Shown: in pieces, positions 9,522-50,624 of the stretch | How the letters are laid out: each line of letters opens with the position of its first letter | Numbering within the stretch: position 1 is the stretch's first letter | NCBI GenBank assembly: GCA_013375495.1 | Contig: JABXKC010000027.1 | Span: 1 to 55,987 of the forward strand | Direction of reading: 5' to 3' | From: Promethearchaeota archaeon | GTDB taxonomy: Archaea > Asgardarchaeota > Lokiarchaeia > Sigynarchaeales > SOKP01 | Length of the DNA: 55,987 nt | Position numbers and translations under genes: made by a program | Notes under the pieces: model-generated | Databases searched by the model: none | Told to the model about the DNA's origin: nothing | What the model saw: only the letters and a program-made list of their open reading frames with translations

Positions 9522-9617
9522 AAATAAAGTTAAATAATATATATTTCATATTAAATATACATTAAATATAGAAAACCCATAGTATATTATAATTAAAATA
9601 GCTGAGTGTTTATCCAA

Positions 9618-10016
9618 ATGGTCTCAAGGTTAGAACTTGTATTAAAAGAATTAAACGAGAATGGAAACTTTAGGGCATCATTATTTTCGACATCAACAGG
9701 ATTAGTTTTAGCTTCCCAGAAATCAGATGATGTTGATGACCGAGTAGTTGCCGCAATGAGCTCGCTATTGAGCGATGCAGCCTATAAAGCTTCTGAAGAG
9801 ATGGATTTGTCCCTACTTACGAGTCTAAAAATTAAATATTTAGAAGATTACATTGTGTGTAGAAATATTATTATGCCTGATCAAAAAACACAATTTATCT
9901 TAGCAGTTTTATCTAAAAGACCCGAATCACAAGAAATTGAGGCTTATTACGATCAACTCCTCGATTGGGCCGTGGATAACGCAACACCAGATTTAGAAAA
10001 ACTCTCTACGATATAA
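9618..10016 (+). CDS. Roadblock/LC7-domain protein
   Basis: A compact protein of about 132 residues made of one Roadblock/LC7 domain: helix (SRLELVLKELNENG), two strands (FRASLFSTSTGLVLAS), a long central helix (RVVAAMSSLLSDAAYKASEE), then the second sheet half. Such proteins dimerise and bind or regulate small GTPases; they are numerous in Asgard archaea. An in-frame GTG at 9606 would add four residues, but ATG at 9618 fits the family start better. It has its own AT-rich upstream region with TATA-like runs. Confidence 0.85.
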   Translation: MVSRLELVLKELNENGNFRASLFSTSTGLVLASQKSDDVDDRVVAAMSSLLSDAAYKASEEMDLSLLTSLKIKYLEDYIVCRNIIMPDQKTQFILAVLSKRPESQEIEAYYDQLLDWAVDNATPDLEKLSTI

Positions 10017-10029
10017 GAATTAGTAATTT

Positions 10030-10704
10030 TTATTTTGTTATCATTTTATAGAATTTATATACTTCTTGAGCGACTTCTTCTTCAAACCCTACATAAAAAT
10101 GGTCAGCTCCCTTAATTATTATATAATTCTTTGGCTCTAAGTAATAATTGTAGTGCTTTTCAAAATTTTCATATAGAGCTATTGTATCTCGATTTCCTTG
10201 AATAAATAATTTATGTTTTTCACTTTGAGAAAGTTCTTTATATTCTAAACCCATAAAATCCCAAGGAAACGAAATCGCGCAATATGCAACGATTTTTTTA
10301 GAATAATTAACGGCAGAACAACCTATAGCAGCACCGTAGGAGTAACCACAGATTATTATTTTTTCGAATCTTTTCTCGTTTAAAAGAAAATCAATACAAG
10401 TTTTCATGTCAATTAACTCTCCAGCTCCAGTAGTGTGATTTCCTGAGGAAGTTCCAACACCCCTAAAATTAAATCGTAAACATGAAATATTATTTTGAAT
10501 GAATTTCTTGAAAACAGCAGAAACTACATTATTATACATATTGCCCCCATATTTTCCCTTTTTAAGGATCTAAATCCCGAAAAATTGAGGATGTGGGTGA
10601 CAAATTATAATAACAAAATGTAGATTATCTGTGTTCGATAGAAACAATTCAGCTTCAAGTTTATTATCATTATTATTAATTAATATTTTATCAATACCAT
10701 GCAT
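10030..10704 (-). CDS. COG2945-like alpha/beta hydrolase, interrupted by a 33-nt intron-like insertion
   Basis: Read on the minus strand as two exons, 10704-10584 and 10550-10030, this gives a 213-residue alpha/beta hydrolase. Exon 1 encodes 40 residues from MHGIDKILIN to CHPHPQ; exon 2 resumes with YGGNMYNNVV. Joined, they restore the family motif HPHPxYGGxMxNxVV. Then follow LRFNFRGVGTSSG, the nucleophile elbow GYSYG (Ser111), Asp162 in GNRD and His191 in GADHF, so the catalytic triad is intact. Unspliced, the frame has 11 extra codons including TAG between Q40 and Y41. Without splicing only the truncated downstream ORF from ATG 10539 would be made, lacking the first strands. Confidence 0.85.
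10551..10583 (-). other. Candidate 33-nt archaeal mRNA intron with bulge-helix-bulge motif
   Basis: The 5' exon strand (10591-10586, UCCUCA) pairs with the 3' exon strand (10549-10544, UGGGGG) in six pairs, two of them G-U. Next are a 3-nt bulge A10585-U-U10583, a 4-bp helix UUUC (10582-10579) with GAAA (10556-10553), and a second 3-nt bulge A10552-U-A10550. Cutting after the second base of each bulge, as archaeal splicing endonucleases do, removes exactly bases 10583-10551. That joins CAAT to ATGG in frame (phase 1, codon TAT). The rest of the intron holds a small GGAU/AUCC hairpin with loop UUAG. Seen in sequence; splicing itself is inferred. Confidence 0.75.
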
Positions 10705-10760
10705 AATTTTATTTAGTTTTTAATCTATAATAATAATACTGTATAAAGAATCTGGTGAAA

Positions 10761-11615
10761 ATGAGTTATAATCGTATCCTAATTGAAAAAAAATTAAAAA
10801 AATTCATATTAGAAGACAATTCCTTTATTGACATTAGTTCAAAATCAATTCCTACAAACTCTCTCTCACACGCAAAAATTATAGCTAAAAGTGATGGCTA
10901 TATATCTGGATTAGAAGAATTAGAGATTTTATTTCAAATTTTAAAGGTTGACATAACCTTCAAGAAAAAAGATGGTGATCAAATCCAAAAGGGAGATATC
11001 ATCGCAGAATTGGATGGAAAAACTAAAGATATTTTGTTAGGTGAACGTGTAGGGTTAAATCTTCTGTGTCATATGAGTGCAATAACAACAACTACTCGTA
11101 AATTTGTAAAAATAATCGAGAAATCCGGAAAAAGAGTGAAAATAGCCTGTACTAGAAAAATTCTTCCTGGTTTACGAATATTTGAAAAAAAGGCGGTAGA
11201 AATTGGAAAAGGTGATACACATCGTTTTAATTTGGATGACATGGTGCTTTTAAAGTCAACTCATTTAAAATTCTATGACGGAAATGTAGCTGAACTTCTC
11301 AAACATACGAAACTCAGGACTAGTTTCACAAAAAAGATAGAGATTGAAGTGGAAAAAGTTGAGGATGTCATTACAGCTGTAAAAAATGGCGCCGATATAA
11401 TAATGCTGGATAATATGAATCCTGATATAGTTCAAGATGCGATGAACTTGTTAAAGCAACAAAATTTACGTGATCAGGTAATTATTGAAGTTTCGGGAAA
11501 CATAACTCAAGAAAACATTGTGGATTATTTGATTTCAGAACCAGATATAATAAGTACGAGTATTCTTACTCAAAAACCTACTGAATTTGTAGATATATCT
11601 CTCCAACTTGATTAA
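10761..11615 (+). CDS. nadC: Nicotinate-nucleotide pyrophosphorylase (carboxylating), quinolinate phosphoribosyltransferase
   Basis: Makes nicotinate mononucleotide from quinolinate and PRPP in NAD synthesis. Motifs: GERVGLNLLCHMSAITT, then TRKILPGLRIFEKKAVEIG and HRFNLDDMVLLK, and IEIEVEKVED with IIMLDNM further on. Length of 284 residues is normal. ATG at 10761 is preferred over a GTG two codons upstream. The related ModD family shares the fold, but the TRK-LPG and HR-LxD motifs fit NadC. nadA and nadB are not in the window. Confidence 0.9.
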   Translation: MSYNRILIEKKLKKFILEDNSFIDISSKSIPTNSLSHAKIIAKSDGYISGLEELEILFQILKVDITFKKKDGDQIQKGDIIAELDGKTKDILLGERVGLNLLCHMSAITTTTRKFVKIIEKSGKRVKIACTRKILPGLRIFEKKAVEIGKGDTHRFNLDDMVLLKSTHLKFYDGNVAELLKHTKLRTSFTKKIEIEVEKVEDVITAVKNGADIIMLDNMNPDIVQDAMNLLKQQNLRDQVIIEVSGNITQENIVDYLISEPDIISTSILTQKPTEFVDISLQLD

Positions 11616-39645: not shown

Positions 39646-40794
39646 TTACTTTTGTTTCGATAAATATCGTATTTTAACCAGTAAATCCCTTAATTCCATT
39701 TTATCATTATCCGTTGTGATGTATTTCTTCTTAACACCCTCAGCGAGAGGAATTGTTTTAATTTTATTTCCTTGAAGCGAAACCATGTTTCCAAATTTAC
39801 CATCCAAAACCAGTTTCATAGATGCAAGTCCAAAACGCAATCCTAAAATCCGATCAAAGGAATTTGGCGTTCCAGCGCGCATTGTATGACCAAGAACTAC
39901 GCTTCTACATTCAAAATCAACGCCATTATTCCGAAAATCTGCTTTAAGATCCTCTCTTAAGTTTAATTCGTCAACAATTATTTTAGATATATTTAGTTTT
40001 GCGAGTAAAGGATTACCAAATGTATCTTTTGGCAATTTATCAATAGTCTCTTTCGAAATAGTCTTAAAATCTCTTTCTAACGATTCATTTTTAGGATAAG
40101 CACCTTCAGATGTTGCTATAATGTGATAAGTATATCCCGCATTTACTCTACTTCTAAGTACATCAACGATATCTCTTTCGAAATCAAACGGTGTTTCAGG
40201 GATAAGTATTATATCTGCACCTGCAGAAAGTCCGCTATACATGGTAAGAAATCCTGCATCCCGACCCATAACCTCAACTACGAATACTCTTTGGTGTGAT
40301 CTTGCCGTAGTGGTTAGATTATCCATTGCGTTTGAGGCTAGTTGTACAGCGCTCCAAAATCCAAATGTATAATGCGTTCCCGCAAGGTCATTATCAATAG
40401 TTTTTGGACAACCGATTACATTTGCTTTTGCGTATTTACACATAGCGTCCGCAACACTTAAAGTGTCATCTCCTCCGATTGCAATCAATGCGTCAATATC
40501 AAAGTCTTCTAATTTAGCAACTAAATCTTGAGCAACTTTCTCTTTAGATTCAGCACCTTTGAACGGATTGGTTCTGCTTGTGTATAATATAGTTCCTCCA
40601 ATGGTATGTAAGTCATCGTGTTCTGCAATTTTGAGCGGAATTGTTAGATTTTCCATAAGTCCTTTCCAACCTTTAAGAATTCCGACACATTCTATACCAG
40701 CATCATAGGCTTTTAACATTATTCCATAAATTACTGAATTTAAGCCTGGGCAATCGCCACCTCCAGTGAGGATTCCTATTTTTTTAATTGTCAA
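39646..40794 (-). CDS. pfkA: 6-phosphofructokinase of PPi-dependent type
   Basis: Phosphorylates fructose 6-phosphate. A 382-residue PfkA-family protein with GILTGGGDCPGLNSVI, IGGTILYTSRTNPF, ALIAIGGDDTLSVADAM and IGCPKTIDNDLAGTHYTFGF. The GGDDT form (Asp where ATP enzymes have Gly) together with PKTIDND (Lys where ATP enzymes have Gly) is the known mark of pyrophosphate-dependent enzymes. Start codon is TTG at 40794. The enzyme would make glycolysis at this step reversible. No other glycolysis gene is adjacent. Confidence 0.9.
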   Translation of the reverse strand: MTIKKIGILTGGGDCPGLNSVIYGIMLKAYDAGIECVGILKGWKGLMENLTIPLKIAEHDDLHTIGGTILYTSRTNPFKGAESKEKVAQDLVAKLEDFDIDALIAIGGDDTLSVADAMCKYAKANVIGCPKTIDNDLAGTHYTFGFWSAVQLASNAMDNLTTTARSHQRVFVVEVMGRDAGFLTMYSGLSAGADIILIPETPFDFERDIVDVLRSRVNAGYTYHIIATSEGAYPKNESLERDFKTISKETIDKLPKDTFGNPLLAKLNISKIIVDELNLREDLKADFRNNGVDFECRSVVLGHTMRAGTPNSFDRILGLRFGLASMKLVLDGKFGNMVSLQGNKIKTIPLAEGVKKKYITTDNDKMELRDLLVKIRYLSKQK

Positions 40795-50267: not shown

Positions 50268-50624
50268 TTATTGATTTTGGAGATCTGCTTGAAGAGATTT
50301 TTGCATATTCTCAAATGTGCTCTTAGTTCTTTCAATTTTTTGAGCAAGCGTGGTAGATCGCATATTTAAAGTTTCTTTGTCAGATTTTTTCTCGTCTAAA
50401 AGTTTGTTTCTTTCGCTTTTAACCAAAATTCCTCCAATCTGCTTATATACTACTGTATCAGGGCTAGCTTTCTCCAATTCATCTAGTGCTAATTCTGTTT
50501 CTCTTATAGTACTATCAATTTGTAGCTTCTGTTGGGTAAGGAGCTCTAGAGATTGTCCTAACTGAGTTAAATTTTGAAATTTTTTTTTTGTTTCATCATC
50601 TAGTTGGTCTAAATTTATTGTCAA
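50268..50624 (-). CDS. pfdB: Prefoldin beta subunit
   Basis: A 118-residue chaperone subunit with two coiled-coil helices linked by a beta hairpin: ETKKKFQNLTQLGQSLELLT, then VVYKQIGGILVKSERNKLL (the hairpin with the conserved VYKxxGxxL pattern), then a second long helix. It forms a hexamer with the alpha subunit and passes substrates to the thermosome. Start is TTG at 50624. Confidence 0.92.
   Translation of the reverse strand: MTINLDQLDDETKKKFQNLTQLGQSLELLTQQKLQIDSTIRETELALDELEKASPDTVVYKQIGGILVKSERNKLLDEKKSDKETLNMRSTTLAQKIERTKSTFENMQKSLQADLQNQ

Follow-up and report, generated by a model that had tools for sequence, protein, structure and literature searches.

A predicted tRNA-type intron in the mRNA of a Lokiarchaeal hydrolase and similar inserts in other protein genes of its relatives

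An alpha/beta hydrolase gene of a Lokiarchaeal genome is interrupted by 33 nt which very probably represent an mRNA intron of the EndA/RtcB type, cut at a bulge-helix-bulge (BHB) and followed by ligation of the exons; cleavage, ligation and the making of the enzyme from spliced mRNA were inferred from genomic sequence. The RNA of the insert is predicted to fold into the signal of tRNA splicing and relatives carry or lack the insert precisely, so that the mRNA is likely spliced. EndA would cut the hydrolase mRNA at the BHB and release the 33-nt insert, RtcB would join the exons after cutting, and the spliced mRNA would be what yields the enzyme. The DNA analysed, a stretch of 55,987 nucleotides, is called the window below. 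Its first-pass annotation had proposed a BHB intron in a protein-coding mRNA, in a new host gene. The evidence supports this proposal well: the insert is present in 19 relatives and absent from 38, its length shifts the frame in three, canonical cuts at a BHB restore the frame, and the family has genes for EndA and RtcB.

The hydrolase gene and its insert

The hydrolase is encoded on the minus strand, with an ATG start at 10704 and its end at 10030. Its divergent upstream neighbour codes for a quinolinate phosphoribosyltransferase (10755-11615) and a convergent ORF is located at 9606-10016. On the minus strand the frame reads CAC CCA CAT CCT CAA, then TTT TTC GGG ATT TAG ATC CTT AAA AAG GGA AAA, then TAT GGG GGC AAT. 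The sequence confirmed the initial reading that 33 nt (11 codons) with an in-frame TAG (10572-10570) interrupt the motif HPHPxYGG, splitting HPHPQ from YGGNM; the TAT codon after the insert begins at 10551. Taking the 33 nt out keeps the frame and gives HPHPQ-YGGNM in a single open frame of 213 aa from 10704 to 10030, with GYSYG, GNRD and GADHF downstream (presumed triad Ser, Asp and His), also as first described. The interval 10544-10591 originally assigned to the intron does contain the insert, but takes in flanks as well. The joined protein matches Abhydrolase_1 over residues 31-129, which spans the junction at 40/41. The ORF list holds the second part alone, as 169 aa from an internal ATG (window 10030-10539). 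An unspliced mRNA would stop after 44 codons with the catalytic domain absent, so that splicing would be needed for making the enzyme. The predicted exon-exon junction of the mRNA is ...CATCCTCA^ATATGGGGG..., and the gene is divided as follows.

10586-10704, minus strand: exon 1, from the ATG (10704-10702) to CCT CA^; MHGIDKIL...IIICHPHPQ; 40 codons, the last finished by exon 2; start and sequence conserved with and without insert
10553-10585, minus strand: intron, 33 nt; predicted cuts CA^A...AA^A, deduced from the 2/1 rule of BHB bulges; same junction in 19 of 57 relatives
10030-10552, minus strand: exon 2, ^A TAT GGG GGC ... TAA, with GYSYG, GNRD and GADHF; fold of the intronless homologue

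A structure model of the intronless homologue from genome G041 has a mean pLDDT of 92, and its closest solved folds are PDB 3trd, 2i3d and 2fuk.

Relatives with and without the insert

A search for relatives having the same gene with and without the insert had been suggested in the first-pass annotation. With exon 2 as query, the 65 genomes of the family gave 58 matches, from which G020 (a fragment without the junction) was left out, leaving 57 relatives. The insert was found at exactly the same junction in 19 of them. The motif is contiguous in the other 38, as had been claimed for hydrolases of this type; these read HPHPx[YFM]GG, with HPHS in four, and at the junction the residues of intronless relatives are like those of the spliced product. 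Carriers belong to three genera, with 16 of 22 genomes in group g1, 2 of 5 in g7 and 1 of 17 in g8. Including the window (n = 20), the insert measures 33 nt in 15 sequences, 32 nt in one, 31 nt in two and 30 nt in two. Three of these 20 lengths are not multiples of three and shift the frame, and an in-frame stop is present in all 20. The letters of the insert diverge among carriers (UUUUUCGGGAUUU..., AUUGAUUGAGAG...). The nearest genome, G001, has 25% of 31-letter words in common with the window. Outside the family, the hydrolase was matched in 14 of 18 genomes of the class, and in none of these 14 was a stop seen inside the gene. The comparison of relatives makes two readings considered at the outset very unlikely, namely an assembly error and a gene decayed in all relatives.

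On the protein tree, the intron label requires at least five changes, four of which are forced by starred branches. G041 has no insert and nests among carriers, sharing a starred group with four of them, the window being one; a further carrier, G025, pairs with G021, which has none. A second tree with database proteins added, where shortened proteins of 168-169 aa were scored as carriers by assumption, needed seven changes, three of them forced. The repeated label changes would fit gain and loss, as for introns. At the junction of G041 (contig C16; L009, L103) the sequence reads CAT CCT CAA TAT, an apparent precise loss of the insert within a carrier clade. Its sequence is as expected for a loss via a spliced RNA copy or via recombination with an intronless gene.

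Selection on the encoded protein appears to act on both exons. Pooled pN/pS is 0.33 in exon 1 and 0.22 in exon 2 (uncorrected counts over 12 overlapping carrier pairs). Carriers keep the start and sequence of exon 1, which in the absence of splicing would be a useless fragment. The codons CAT CCT, which form the exon 1 side of the central helix described below, occur in 20 of 20 carriers vs 11 of 38 non-carriers, an excess that comes down to few independent events on the tree (1.6 vs 0 in 4 pairs, not significant).

A covariance model of the hydrolase intron gave E-values of 1e-11 or better solely at the 19 carriers' own inserts. The next 18 matches (E < 0.01) comprised 11 intronless junctions of the hydrolase gene, one on the opposite strand of the G001 insert, and six elsewhere; the one of these six that was examined (L092) lies in stop-rich sequence. 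No dispersed copies of the intron were seen by this search, with that one of the six examined.

With the spliced hydrolase of G048 as query, the two best database matches were 169-aa truncations with 91-93% (clusters of 70 and 24 sequences). Among the best 120 of 359 matches no full-length protein exceeded 72%, hence no sign of a cDNA. Databases hold exon 2 alone as a protein of 168-169 aa (P0018, P0035, P0049, P0083, P0093, P0098, P0121, P0122). Carriers are probably mis-annotated as a rule.

Predicted structure of the insert

A BHB consists of two bulges on opposite strands and on opposite sides of a 4-bp helix. Bulges of 3 nt and a 4-bp helix are also given in the available text of PMC6379350. 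The hydrolase insert can form this structure, with two 3-nt bulges (CAA and AAA) 4 bp apart, an outer helix h (CCCACA/UAUGGG, one C.A mismatch), a central helix H (UCCU/GGGA) and an inner helix h' (UUUUU/AAAAA) closed by a hairpin. Its elements are listed in the order of the mRNA.

10592-10597, minus strand: outer helix h, 5' strand CCCACA; pairs with UAUGGG at 10551-10546, C10593.A10550 mismatched
10588-10591, minus strand: central helix H, 5' strand UCCU (exon 1); 4/4 pairs in 18 of 20 sequences, 3/4 in two of g7 (register shifted by one)
10585-10587, minus strand: 5' bulge CAA of the BHB register, predicted cut CA^A
10580-10584, minus strand: inner helix h', 5' strand UUUUU; pairs with AAAAA at 10563-10559, then hairpin GGGAU(UUAG)AUCCU
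10559-10563, minus strand: inner helix h', 3' strand AAAAA
10555-10558, minus strand: central helix H, 3' strand GGGA (intron)
10552-10554, minus strand: 3' bulge AAA, predicted cut AA^A
10546-10551, minus strand: outer helix h, 3' strand UAUGGG (exon 2)

Canonical cleavage behind the second base of either bulge (CA^A, AA^A) gives CCT CA^A TAT GGG, which encodes HPHPQYGG and restores the frame. The first-pass annotation had drawn another fold, with an outer helix UCCUCA/UGGGGG, bulges AUU and AUA and a central helix UUUC/GAAA. This fold had to be rejected, as its bulges face each other between the same helices and form a 3x3 internal loop; its best completion reaches -9.7 kcal/mol, vs -13.8 for the true BHB and -15.1 for the predicted minimum of the window's insert. 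The claim of a canonical BHB at the insert nevertheless stood, together with the same spliced mRNA, but with helices that differ from those drawn.

The first three pairs of h' are kept in all 20 hydrolase sequences, and one pair of h' changes from U-A to C-G in 3 of 16 distinct sequences. Compensatory changes in h were found in G043 and G055 (A-U to G-C) and in G060 (C-G to U-A). The outer helix has only 3-5 of 6 pairs, and is weaker (3-4 of 6) in G052, G059, G054, G050, G038, G060 and G018. The BHB is never the predicted energy minimum. The gap between the two is 0.5-1.5 kcal/mol in g1 and g8 and widens to about 3.5 in both sequences of g7. The consensus preferred by RNAalifold is a rod that has 2x2 loops and shares h' but not H. 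When the letters of the insert were shuffled and the exons kept, equal pairing was obtained in 0 of 4000 shuffles for the window, and none of the 20 sequences was equalled in more than 0.5% of its 4000 shuffles; when the register could be chosen freely, p stayed at or below 0.05 for all 20. Covariation in the hydrolase alone is modest. Over 16 distinct sequences, 89.7% of the cells are paired vs 88.1 in shuffles (7 of 500 as high) and six cells show double changes vs 2.3, with pairs having a double change equalled in 110, further pair types in 334 and the covariation score in 39 of 500 shuffles. Slid structures reach at most 74.6% paired cells.

Both strands of the window together hold 299 BHB-like motifs by strict criteria (H 4/4, h at least 5/6, h' at least 4). 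Nine of them, the hydrolase site included, would link two frames that are closed otherwise. When the criteria were relaxed and a coding score was added, the hydrolase site ranked 11th on its strand. Scanning of the window for the motif, with or without coding score, was dropped since the true site was not singled out. By itself a BHB-like motif is weak evidence. The motif alone being too common, genomes were compared, and it is the comparative evidence that decides.

Similar inserts in other genes

Contigs of G048, G054, G025, G033, G017 (two, in part) and G024 (in part) were compared together with the window, in total 1,129,627 bases. Mechanical ORFs of at least 80 aa formed 201 clusters present in at least two of the seven genomes, and each ORF was compared by tblastn with the other contigs. 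Five further sites with similar inserts were found in relatives, in four genes coding for an Elf1-like transcription factor, an epimerase, an RNase HII and a phosphofructokinase (two sites), and the hydrolase insert does not stand alone. With the hydrolase included, the compared contigs hold 15 inserts (four each in G048 and G025, two each in G054 and G033, one each in G017, G024 and the window), i.e. one per 75 kb. Without the five hydrolase inserts there are 10, or one per 113 kb, most contigs having been picked for holding or adjoining the hydrolase. Genomes of the family probably hold tens of introns each; as genes without an intact comparator are missed, this figure is an extrapolation. 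A candidate 16-nt insert in G017 was examined and not kept, and a suspected frameshift at 50268-50624 of the window turned out to be two separate genes, for a prefoldin and a DHH protein.

In the Elf1-like factor (PF05129) the insert lies at CP[ENQD]^CGE of the zinc ribbon. Both halves of the motif were found in 48 of the genomes that were read, 28 with insert and 21 contiguous, G029 having one copy of each. The lengths are 32 nt in six, 31 nt in 13, 30 nt in eight and 28 nt in one. The two Elf1-like copies of G029, with and without insert (L205, L285), sit in one bin, and the second copy could be a paralogue or contamination. Among the best 120 of 475 database matches the best full-length Elf1 protein reached 89%, and gave no sign of a cDNA. 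The NAD-dependent epimerase (PF01370) is broken at FGHVN^PVGP by a 31-nt insert in 10 of the loci read, with 23 contiguous by motif; in the search, 50 genomes gave one full-length match, 11 a match split at the place of the insert and one a partial match. The RNase HII-like gene, matched in 59 genomes, has 30-nt inserts at GIDEAGR^G in 10 of 30 loci read (16 contiguous, motif not found in four), to which G024 is added as the eleventh; further genomes show stops in this gene.

The phosphofructokinase-like gene was matched in 54 genomes, and 30 loci were read. At site 1 (GGG-D-C) the insert is present in G048, G053 and G021, with 26 loci contiguous and one where the motif was not found. The junction first set there, of 34 nt, gave p of about 0.9; it was corrected by hand to an Asp codon split GGAG^...^AC, which gives a 31-nt insert, the product TGGGDCPGL and H 4/4 in 3 of 3. 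Site 2 (IGGD^DT) is occupied in G048 and G047, with 21 loci contiguous and seven without the motif found, and H has only 2/4 pairs. One gene (G048:C70:27410-28625, L325) carries both inserts, of 31 and 30 nt; that of the window (39646-40794) is contiguous at both sites. The names RNase HII and phosphofructokinase are our assignments, presumed from motifs.

The frame is closed by a stop or a shift in all 58 hydrolase, epimerase and Elf1 inserts. A canonical-cut register which restores the product, chosen by score, lies at d=-2 in 10 of 10 epimerase and at d=0 in 28 of 28 Elf1 inserts. H has at least 3/4 pairs in all of them, being complete in 2 of 10 epimerase and 7 of 28 Elf1 inserts and having one mismatch in 8 of 10 and 21 of 28; for RNase HII, H is 4/4 in 8 of 10 and 3/4 in 2 of 10. 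Shuffling gave p of at most 0.05 in 9 of 10 epimerase and 27 of 28 Elf1 inserts, the exceptions being G012 (epimerase, 0.112) and G037 (Elf1, 0.092). All six insert sites fall within motifs that are highly conserved and apparently serve catalysis or metal binding. The pattern may come from a bias of detection, or conserved targets may truly be preferred, in the manner of homing introns.

Covariation between exon and intron was followed in 21 of 27 distinct Elf1 inserts, six near-duplicates being left out. The cells are paired to 87.6% vs 73.3 in shuffles, with 11 pairs showing double changes vs 7.0, 49 double-change cells vs 15.7 and a covariation score of 0.417 vs 0.173; none of 500 shuffles was as high in any of these, bearing in mind that related sequences can beat shuffles without any structure. 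Slid structures reach at most 44.9% paired cells and a score of at most 0.110, a comparison that favours the structure tested, which was drawn from the same sequences. In H, two of the covarying pairs have one base in the exon and the other in the intron (A-U/G-C/U-A; G-C/A-U/C-G, the second of them unpaired in 8 of 21). In the RNAalifold consensus for Elf1, H is unpaired.

Splicing enzymes in the family

EndA-type matches (PF01974) number at least two in 53 of the 65 genomes, one in 11 and none in one. At least two were found in 16 of the 19 carriers, the single matches being in G017, G018 and G060. Putative catalytic and structural subunits were both recognised in G001, the genome in which the subunits were read. 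One, of 200 aa, aligns best with the tRNA-splicing endonuclease 3p1z, including a His, which we take to be the catalytic residue, and the residues KPR; the other, of 202 aa, has Ser where 1a79 has His. The EndA of G001 is thus probably of the heteromeric type and would form an (alpha beta)2 tetramer. In the available text of PMC2738675, mRNA introns are tied to hetero-oligomeric EndA, and in that of PMC6379350 the Lys of the crenarchaeal loop is tied to broad EndA specificity. In our reading, the Lokiarchaeal Lys in KPR would be the equivalent of this loop Lys. An RtcB gene was found in 20 of the 21 genomes asked, the match of G056 being a fragment; G018 was the one of the 21 with no match. 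In cbf5, no stop or intron was found in the 64 of 65 family genomes having a match above the cut-off (two partial); the host of the intron described here is the hydrolase.

Alternative explanations

Programmed translational bypassing, in which the ribosome hops over a stretch that the mRNA keeps, is known from T4 gene 60 and the byps of yeast mitochondria. Aided by the hairpin, it would suit an insert of 28-33 nt placed between codons, with the frame restored at any length, and identical take-off and landing-side codons do occur in 10 of 28 Elf1 inserts. However, such matching codons are found in none of the 20 hydrolase and in one of the 10 epimerase inserts, these three genes having been counted, and bypassing would need neither a 3-4-3 BHB at the junction nor covariation between exon and insert; we hold it to be improbable. 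Simple readthrough was rejected, as it cannot serve the lengths that shift the frame, which were seen in 3 of 20 inserts for the hydrolase, 10 of 10 for the epimerase and 20 of 28 for Elf1. Removal by a machinery other than EndA, RNA-based or protein, which would recognise a rod-like hairpin, draws on the predicted minimum being a rod with internal loops or another fold, and not the BHB. Against it stands the canonical register that restores the product with H of at least 3/4, seen in 58 of 58 hydrolase, epimerase and Elf1 inserts, 10 of 10 of RNase HII and 3 of 3 at site 1 of phosphofructokinase (site 2, with 2/4, is the exception), as do the exon positions of H that covary with the intron in Elf1. 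No Rfam match at gathering score was obtained within the window, and a group I or II catalytic core was not recognised in the 33 nt. Such a machinery is regarded as very improbable.

The insert could also mark a decaying pseudogene, with the enzyme inactivated, or a split gene making two peptides. The TAG closes the frame, an ATG lies just behind the junction, and the second part alone (168-169 aa) makes up 6 of 120 database proteins listed. Both parts nevertheless look under purifying selection, and carriers keep open frames with the same start, the insert being carried by 19 relatives in three genera. As for two peptides, the ATG behind the junction is CTG in G048, and the second part would lack HPHP, which is invariant in 19 aligned intronless homologues. 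This makes decay or splitting highly implausible. An assembly artefact might be suspected since the assemblies are presumably metagenomic, but the insert recurs with diverged letters at the same codon in separate assemblies, and the chance of an artefact is practically negligible.

Significance and comparison with known systems

Beyond the hydrolase, we consider it fairly probable that Lokiarchaeota practise genome-wide splicing of mRNA by the tRNA-splicing enzymes, with tens of BHB introns of about 30 nt per genome, two in some genes, placed in active-site or metal-binding codons of core genes (Elf1, RNase HII, phosphofructokinase) and precisely gained and lost. These archaea are close to eukaryotes and may commonly splice their mRNA. 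If true, a non-spliceosomal intron system would exist in the archaeal kin of eukaryotes, unseen since gene callers shorten the proteins, and databases would contain truncated versions of many Lokiarchaeal proteins. The proteome of archaea near eukaryotes would be shaped by EndA and RtcB, and gain and loss of mRNA introns could be studied outside the spliceosome. Frequent mRNA splicing in a lineage without spliceosome thereby becomes directly testable.

The host protein shares its fold with hydrolases of the type that the first-pass annotation named COG2945 (PDB 3trd, 2i3d, 2fuk), and HPHPxxGG is present in 3trd and 2i3d; we know of no intron in the genes of these three proteins. The nearest known system is that of the cbf5 introns of Desulfurococcales and Sulfolobales, for which the available text of PMC2738675 gives lengths of 16-44 bp, so that the 33-nt intron is not among the shortest imaginable, as had been thought in the first-pass annotation. 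Common to both are a short coding BHB intron, gain with lineage-specific loss, a host with hetero-oligomeric EndA, and mis-annotation. The cbf5 case concerns one gene with a spliced cDNA seen, whereas the present one concerns another archaeal group and six sites in five other genes, for which splicing is predicted. Introns in other protein genes are there predicted and not confirmed, as far as that text goes. In PMC7714728, to the extent of its available text, the cbf5 intron is the only further mRNA example reported besides the authors' own case in a 5' UTR. That case, HVO_1309 of Haloferax, shares the processing of a BHB in mRNA by EndA (predicted here), but its BHB sites lie in the 5' UTR and leave the coding frame uninterrupted. 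Abundant tRNA introns are described for three Asgard genomes (Atabeyarchaeia, Freyarchaeia) in the available text of PMC11291895. These resemble the present inserts in their Asgard hosts, their number and presumably the enzymes; there the host RNA is tRNA, and that text holds no mRNA introns in these genomes. In the open-licence PMC papers searched, coding BHB introns were not found described for Asgard archaea, and such introns are confirmed for cbf5 alone, in Crenarchaeota; here, the comparison of about 200 gene clusters in one Asgard family gave six sites in five genes.
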